Origin: a virus
DNA: 64,000 nt
Strand: one strand, 5' to 3'
IMG/VR virus record: IMGVR_UViG_3300027759_000002
Coordinates: 62,001 to 126,000 of that record
Below the pieces are notes generated by a model. It was not told the DNA's origin and ran no database searches. It was given only the letters and a program-made list of their open reading frames with translations. This document shows positions 55,356 to 55,550 of the stretch, one piece after another. How positions within the stretch are numbered: position 1 is the stretch's first letter; every line of letters starts with the position of its first letter. Position numbers and translations under genes: made by a program.

Positions 55356-55550
55356 TCCCATCGGGATGGGAAAAGTCAAAGGTGGAACCTGGTCCTACCG
55401 AGACTTAATACTCCAGGAAAAAGGTGCTCCACCTACCTTAGGAGCGTTAGTAAAACGGGCAGACGTAATTGCCGCTGGATAACGTAACCAGTACCTTAAG
55501 CGATACGCCTTCGGGGTATCAATTTTTAATCTCGCTTTCAGGAGAAACTT
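55356..55550 (+). promoter_or_regulatory. Structured 5' leader of hsp20
   Basis: About 190 nt without a gene but with consecutive stems. These are TCCCAT/ATGGGA (55356-55371), GGTGGA/TCCACC enclosing CCTGG/CCAGG (55381-55433), GGCA/TGCC (55458-55473), CTGG/CCAG (55475-55491) and GATAC/GTATC with a UUCG loop followed by five T (55502-55527, attenuator-like). Finally TCTC/GAGA (55530-55545) holds the SD. No known riboswitch class is recognised. Confidence 0.6.

Follow-up and report, generated by a model that had tools for sequence, protein, structure and literature searches.

A ROSE-like element, a candidate RNA thermometer, and a phage RNA motif in the leader of a viral hsp20 gene

The window analyzed here, a stretch of 64,000 nucleotides, is part of a virus record of 179,754 bases. 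Its genes for the clamp (gp45), the clamp loader (gp44 and gp62), RegA, and Hsp20 are arranged in this order, matching the regA-hsp20 order also annotated in phages S-PM2 and P-HM1. The window Hsp20 shares ~40% identity with Escherichia coli IbpA and retains the equivalents of IbpA Y34, R93, and R97. A cluster of 26 tRNA genes (56308-63582) begins ~310 bp downstream of hsp20. The following features, from the promoter region to hsp20, were assigned.

55325..55353, plus strand: perfect sigma-70-type promoter, TTGACA-17-TATAAT (promoter scan, 12/12)
55336..55343, plus strand: TATAAATA, putative T4-type late promoter octamer overlapping the sigma-70 promoter (sequence)
55356..55371, plus strand: 5'-terminal hairpin UCCCAU-CGGG-AUGGGA, likely a 5'-end module (fold)
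55374..55420, plus strand: optional insert of ~47 nt with a CCUGG/CCAGG stem (presence or absence among relatives)
55421..55445, plus strand: AAGGTGCTCCACCTACCTTAGGAGC, a nearly invariant block (sequence)
55456..55492, plus strand: motif R, consisting of CG, hairpin H2 (55458-55462 with 55469-55473), and hairpin H3, CUGG-AUAACGUAA-CCAG (55475-55491) (covariation and model R1)
55502..55520, plus strand: ROSE-like hairpin 1, GAUAC-[G]-CC-UUCG-GG-GUAUC, with bulged G55507 (recovered in 126 of 130 leaders, with covarying outer pairs)
55530..55545, plus strand: ROSE-like hairpin 2, proposed to be thermosensing, UCUC-[G]-CU / AG-GAGA (UYGCU in 139 of 143 leaders)
55532-55536, plus strand: UCGCU motif with bulged G55534, within hairpin 2 and facing AGGAG
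55540..55544, plus strand: Shine-Dalgarno (SD) sequence AGGAG, predicted to be sequestered by UCGCU (sequence)
55551..55994, plus strand: hsp20, encoding an IbpA-like small heat shock protein of 147 aa (PF00011, 5e-17; phrog_432, 5e-38)

The promoter and the TATAAATA octamer, which were absent from the original prediction, lie directly 5' of the leader. Elsewhere on the plus strand of the window, TATAAATA occurs only at 36198 and at 37408, in the second case shortly before a head scaffolding gene, and the octamer showed no enrichment across the window as a whole. The copy at 55336-55343 may be a T4-type late promoter. Because it overlaps a perfect sigma-70 promoter, hsp20 is probably transcribed with this leader both early and late. 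Starting near 55360, a sigma-70 transcript would lack part of the 5'-terminal hairpin, and a late transcript starting near 55349 would hold all of it. Four perfect (12/12) sigma-70 promoters were found on the plus strand of the window, at 50025, 51866, 55325, and 56087; the last overlaps a terminator hairpin (56079-56100) downstream of hsp20.

The region 55356-55560 folded with a minimum free energy of -61.9 kcal/mol, compared with a mean of -50.8 kcal/mol for shuffled sequences (z = -2.94), and none of 200 shuffles was as low. The fold bears out the original prediction of a structured leader with at least five stems. The leader is a composite, made up of an SD-proximal ROSE-like element, the upstream phage RNA motif R, and optional 5' modules.

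The ROSE-like two-hairpin part forms the last ~50 nt of the leader (55502-55545). The hsp20 loci were gathered from IMG/VR with the proteins of the window, S-PM2, HTVC008M, and S-H25 as queries, and cultured phages were added. In 139 of 143 distinct phage hsp20 leaders, UYGCU was located at most 42 nt from the start, facing AGGA. Leaders with UYGCU against the SD ranged from those of freshwater T4-like phages to those of cultured Synechococcus, Prochlorococcus, Methylophilales, and Pelagibacter phages, including S-PM2, P-HM1, S-H25, Melnitz-2, and HTVC008M. The motif was specific to hsp20: as a control, UYGCU at the same spacing was found before only 26 of 946 (2.7%) other genes with an SD and ATG in the same DNA, and these 26 included a GroES, a DnaK, and several phasin-like proteins. 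Four pelagiphage-like leaders (L250, L252, L255, and L257) carry UGUCU instead of UYGCU and keep the upstream hairpin; in these, the sensor may have been lost or altered naturally.

A structure parser recovered hairpin 1 from 126 of 130 leaders, and in every case it carried the bulged G (Y-G-C-C/U ... R-G). The parser demands the first three outer pairs and leaves the next two (-4 and -5) unconstrained. Pair -4 was nevertheless formed in 99% of the leaders (53% when shuffled) and pair -5 in 83% (40% when shuffled), and these free pairs showed all four Watson-Crick types (GC, AT, CG, and TA). An independent alignment of 39 leaders made with MAFFT contained 85 double-changed cells for this structure, compared with 34 after shuffling, with a covariation of 0.399 versus 0.165 and none of 500 shuffles as high; slid controls on the same alignment gave at most 0.14. 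The comparison across related phages that had been proposed as a check thus revealed covariation in hairpin 1. In hairpin 2, the core anti-SD pairs vary on one side only (C-G/U-G), because the SD forbids more change, and the anti-SD motif itself partly follows from the SD. Pair -4, just outside this core, covaries (U-A, C-G, and A-U). The motif is defined such that every UYGCU includes the bulged G opposite the SD. The final hairpin pairing TCTC with GAGA, as originally proposed, therefore has comparative support, but taken alone it was thermodynamically not significant (z = -0.57).

ROSE-like elements are recognized by a position in front of a small heat shock gene, in its 5' UTR, by U(U/C)GCU paired with the SD, by two to four hairpins of which the 5' one is stable and conserved, and by a bulged G that weakens the SD hairpin; the phage leader shows a small heat shock gene downstream, this pairing, two such hairpins, and the bulged G. 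The noted resemblance of UCGCU to the UYGCU of ROSE elements was thus confirmed, with SD pairing, bulged G, and preceding hairpin recurring with covariation. We consider it nearly certain that the phage hsp20 leader carries a ROSE-like element in the structural sense.

We compared the leader with known RNA families. At the gathering threshold, Rfam models detected only tRNAs. The best Rfam match near the leader was ROSE_3 (RF02523) at 55499-55556, at 15.4 bits, which is not significant alone; the gathering cut-off of this family is 43 bits. When the whole genome of the window was scanned with ROSE_3, the leader was not listed, and another place was reported at 12.1 bits instead. The Rfam check thus placed ROSE_3 at the leader as the best match, but at a score under the cut-off. 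ROSE_3 also matched before hsp20 of Melnitz-2 (34.1 bits), G018 (31.1 bits), G017 (30.6 bits), and C48C1 (26.8 bits), in each case as the sole match in the genome, and before a phasin-like gene in G002 (36.8 bits). No phage copy reached the gathering score (best, 34.1-36.8 bits); because the cut-off is unmet, the leader is not assigned to RF02523. A covariance model built only from phage leaders (R2) gave 29 matches over 23 phage records, comprising 21 hsp20 leaders, five phasin-like genes, one dnaK, and two further weak matches. In five genomes outside its building set (G001, G003, G005, G019, and G026), the best R2 match was the hsp20 leader. Run on 4 kb with filters off, the same model detected the ibpB leader of E. 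coli at 21 bits (E = 8e-4). Together with the recurrence in 139 of 143 leaders and the sub-cut-off ROSE_3 matches, this upholds the proposal of a ROSE-like element on a viral chaperone gene, one that is widespread in T4-like phages.

Similar hairpin pairs were observed before other genes. In large freshwater phages, they precede genes for small phasin-like proteins of 74-91 aa (L397, L399, L400, L396, and L394); two of the phasin-like proteins were searched against Pfam and gave no match above the cut-off. On a 28.9-kb contig (G026), a UUGCU/AGGAG leader precedes dnaK (L398), adjoining a ROSE-led hsp20 on the same contig. On a 136-kb viral contig, a UUGCU/AGGAG leader precedes groES on the minus strand at ~10306 (L169), with the bulged-G hairpin GCACAGU-G-CUC GGGU GAG-ACUGUGC.

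The upstream part of the leader is modular. The sequence GGGATGGGA was found again upstream of the ROSE-like element in 63 loci, including leaders with differing middle parts. The insert at 55374-55420 was met only in hsp20 leaders; it is present in L001-L011 and L024 and cleanly missing as a block in the close relatives L012-L023, L025, and L026. The AAGGTGCTCCACCTACCTTAGGAGC block occurs only before leaders composed of R and the ROSE-like element, and it could form an H-type pseudoknot (AAGGU/ACCUU and GCUCC/GGAGC). At two loci (L030 and L077), a different pseudoknot-like element replaces motif R about 60-110 nt upstream of hsp20. It reads CCAGC-AGUCCGAGGUUAAG-GCUGG-n9-CCUCGG in L077 and GCAGC...GCUGC...CCUCGG in L030, apparently an H-type pseudoknot with a compensatory change.

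Motif R spans roughly 40 nt, with the consensus (A)AnCG-[4-5 bp stem H2, loop 5-10]-R-CUGGA-nnn-CGUAACCAGU. Searching IMG/VR for the H3 core gave at least 120 stretches, with 102 distinct instances among the matches listed; some pattern matches inside coding regions were attributed to chance and left out of the alignment (A2). Across 45 distinct instances, H2 covaried strongly, with 61 double-changed cells over its four inner pairs, and the covariation of the whole R structure was 0.342 versus 0.142 (0/500). H3 is invariant in A2 because the search pattern fixed it, and this invariance is hence no evidence. A CGR/YCG pseudoknot within R is supported mainly by one pair with A-U/G-C/G-U exchange, a pair that is unformed in the window copy. 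A covariance model of the motif (R1) gave a single strong hit in each of 18 genomes among 21 phage records and scored 45.5 bits (E = 1.9e-16) on the window, as a single copy in the 180-kb genome. No match to the R locus was obtained at E ≤ 10 among 4227 Rfam covariance models, and none at the gathering score was obtained for R in 12 R-carrying contigs. BLAST matches in isolate phage records were at chance level, and the motif was undetected there. In 257 Gb of bacterial and archaeal genomes, four exact-core matches were found, which is about the number estimated by chance, and the flanks listed lacked the R layout; a host origin for R was rejected on these grounds.

In phage genomes, R is found in leaders, shortly before ROSE-like hairpin 1, and after the stop codons of other genes, those for PstS, an outer-membrane barrel, and glycosyltransferase-like proteins, where a terminator often follows. 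The 3'-UTR instances in viral contigs come from L084-L201 (for example, L106, L115, and L157), and R after stop codons may constitute a phage 3'-UTR RNA family. In an 80-locus set, R was present in 18 of 50 distinct hsp20 leaders, and it was found in none of the marine hsp20 leaders listed. The original prediction had offered a novel phage RNA as the alternative to a thermometer, and this holds for the upstream part (55456-55492), which covaries and is absent from Rfam. R is an independent, apparently phage-specific RNA and would likely act as a protein-binding or mRNA-stabilizing element.

Based on the comparative evidence, we favor the reading that the SD-proximal element functions as a short, two-hairpin ROSE-like thermometer of a T4-like phage on Hsp20, which we regard as likely and which is possibly coupled to Hsp20 autoregulation. 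At low temperature, UCGCU with its bulged G would pair imperfectly with AGGAG and restrain Hsp20 translation. On warming, the weak hairpin 2 would open and ribosomes would bind, while the upstream UUCG hairpin would remain closed and hold the sensor folded. Transcription would start at the strong early sigma-70 promoter and probably also at the late promoter; with both, the message would accumulate and translation would be the switch. Motif R would sit before the thermometer as it does in the 3' UTRs of other phage genes. Several observations weigh against a thermometer. Nearest-neighbor folding kept the window SD ~65% paired from 5 to 50°C, with no melting of the hairpin and values not separable from those of other ribosome-binding sites (RBSs). 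The window copy scored far below the ROSE_3 cut-off, with another place listed in the genome-wide scan. In addition, the four UGUCU leaders lack UYGCU, and hairpins of this kind are also found before phasin-like genes, a group not known to belong to the heat-shock genes.

Among the alternatives, the one that fares best, though we consider it clearly less probable than the thermometer, is autorepression like that of E. coli IbpA, in which phage Hsp20 would bind the hsp20 leader and hold down its translation; this may coexist with the thermometer. Aggregates would titrate Hsp20 away and derepress the gene, and the leader would therefore sense protein damage during infection. To repress itself via the ibpA 5' UTR, E. 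coli IbpA depends on R93, on R97/K98, and on position 34 being aromatic (PMC10474464). The phage proteins retain the equivalents of Y/F34, R93, and mostly R97, whereas IbpB is without R93, and the conserved leader co-occurs with the conserved arginine equivalent to the RNA-binding R93. However, the Y/F34 and R93 equivalents may be retained for structural reasons, and the position equivalent to K98 holds T in the window protein and varies among phages. Also, five phasin-like genes and a dnaK share the hairpin pair, and their products are not small heat shock proteins.

It is rather unlikely that the upstream RNA (R and its neighbors) is the main regulator, as a ligand- or protein-binding riboregulator or a released small RNA, with the RBS hairpin tuning the basal level. 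R covaries, lies under a strong promoter, and is conserved across many phages, but most hsp20 leaders are without it, whereas the ROSE-like part is nearly universal, and R also lies downstream of pstS and outer-membrane genes, in 3' UTRs, from where it cannot control an RBS. Even less probable, in our view, is that hsp20 and an ordinary, weak RBS hairpin descend together from an ibpA-like ancestor in bacteria and that the hairpin regulates nothing in the phage today. The folding energetics, which give no indication of melting, agree with such a hairpin, but the strong covariation and the near-universal retention in phages whose hosts differ widely speak for ongoing selection.

The least probable reading, which we regard as very improbable, is a transcription attenuator, in which the UUCG hairpin (55502-55520) and the AATTTTTAA that follows it would form an intrinsic terminator governed by the upstream RNA in a riboswitch-like manner: the hairpin and TTTTT do separate the upstream structures from the SD, a four-T run occurs in 43 of 62 freshwater-set leaders, and R in 3' UTRs often precedes terminators, but the reading is unsupported because the T-run is absent from all 64 marine leaders while the hairpin is kept there, and furthermore the conserved bulged G interrupts the stem, the hairpin failed to qualify in the terminator scan, which gave no score, and many leaders are entirely without the upstream structured part. 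The attenuator-like hairpin with its T-run was correctly recognized in the window, but not its attenuator role; the hairpin is conserved as ROSE hairpin 1 rather than as a terminator.

If the element works, these phages, which are abundant in the sea and in fresh water, regulate the chaperone that they encode in response to temperature or proteotoxic stress and do so without host sigma-32. Motif R would be a new family of phage RNAs. Searches of the PMC open-access subset by motif sequence and by topic found nothing relevant, and no ROSE-type thermometer in a virus was found described there. Cyanophage Hsp20 has previously been studied as a protein. A broader proposal is that most hsp20-bearing T4-like Kyanoviridae and related large freshwater phages have ROSE-type thermometers, in some contigs also before dnaK and phasin-like genes, which would amount to an RNA-governed viral heat-shock regulon, and that motif R is a compact, phage-only, probably pseudoknotted family of leaders and 3' UTRs. 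Taken as a whole, this joint proposal could in our judgment go either way.

Among known systems, the lambda cIII thermometer is likewise a phage-encoded mRNA structure at an RBS, and it depends on temperature, as is proposed for the hsp20 leader. It is translated at low temperature and closed at high temperature through two alternative folds (PMC4166951), and thus differs from the hsp20 leader in the opposite temperature direction, with no sequence relation. Cyanobacterial hsp17/hspA are RNA thermometers on small heat shock genes, and one Anabaena element is described as ROSE-like; the best characterized case, Synechocystis hsp17, is a single hairpin (PMC4166951), without the two-hairpin plan of the phage element, from which it is set apart by description only. 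The E. coli ibpB leader shares with the phage leaders a bulged-G hairpin (GCUC-G-CC GUCA GG-GAGC) and ACUCGCUU...AAGGAGAAA, but has an additional hairpin between the two, and the E. coli ibpA leader reached merely 9.6 bits with the phage-built model. The closest likeness is to Pseudomonas ibpA, proven short two-hairpin ROSE-like thermometers (Krajewski 2013, PMC3669281), and to ROSE_3. As in these, the phage element has two hairpins, ~60 nt in minimal phage leaders, with a stable first hairpin and a 3' hairpin in which U(U/C)GCU pairs with the SD, and it precedes a small heat shock gene; GAUGCC...GGGUC in the consensus of ROSE_3 is the same bulged-G hairpin 1. Unlike them, the element is phage-borne, scores below the Rfam cut-off, and lies behind a sigma-70/late-type promoter instead of a sigma-32 promoter, and the window copy is joined to an upstream phage RNA.
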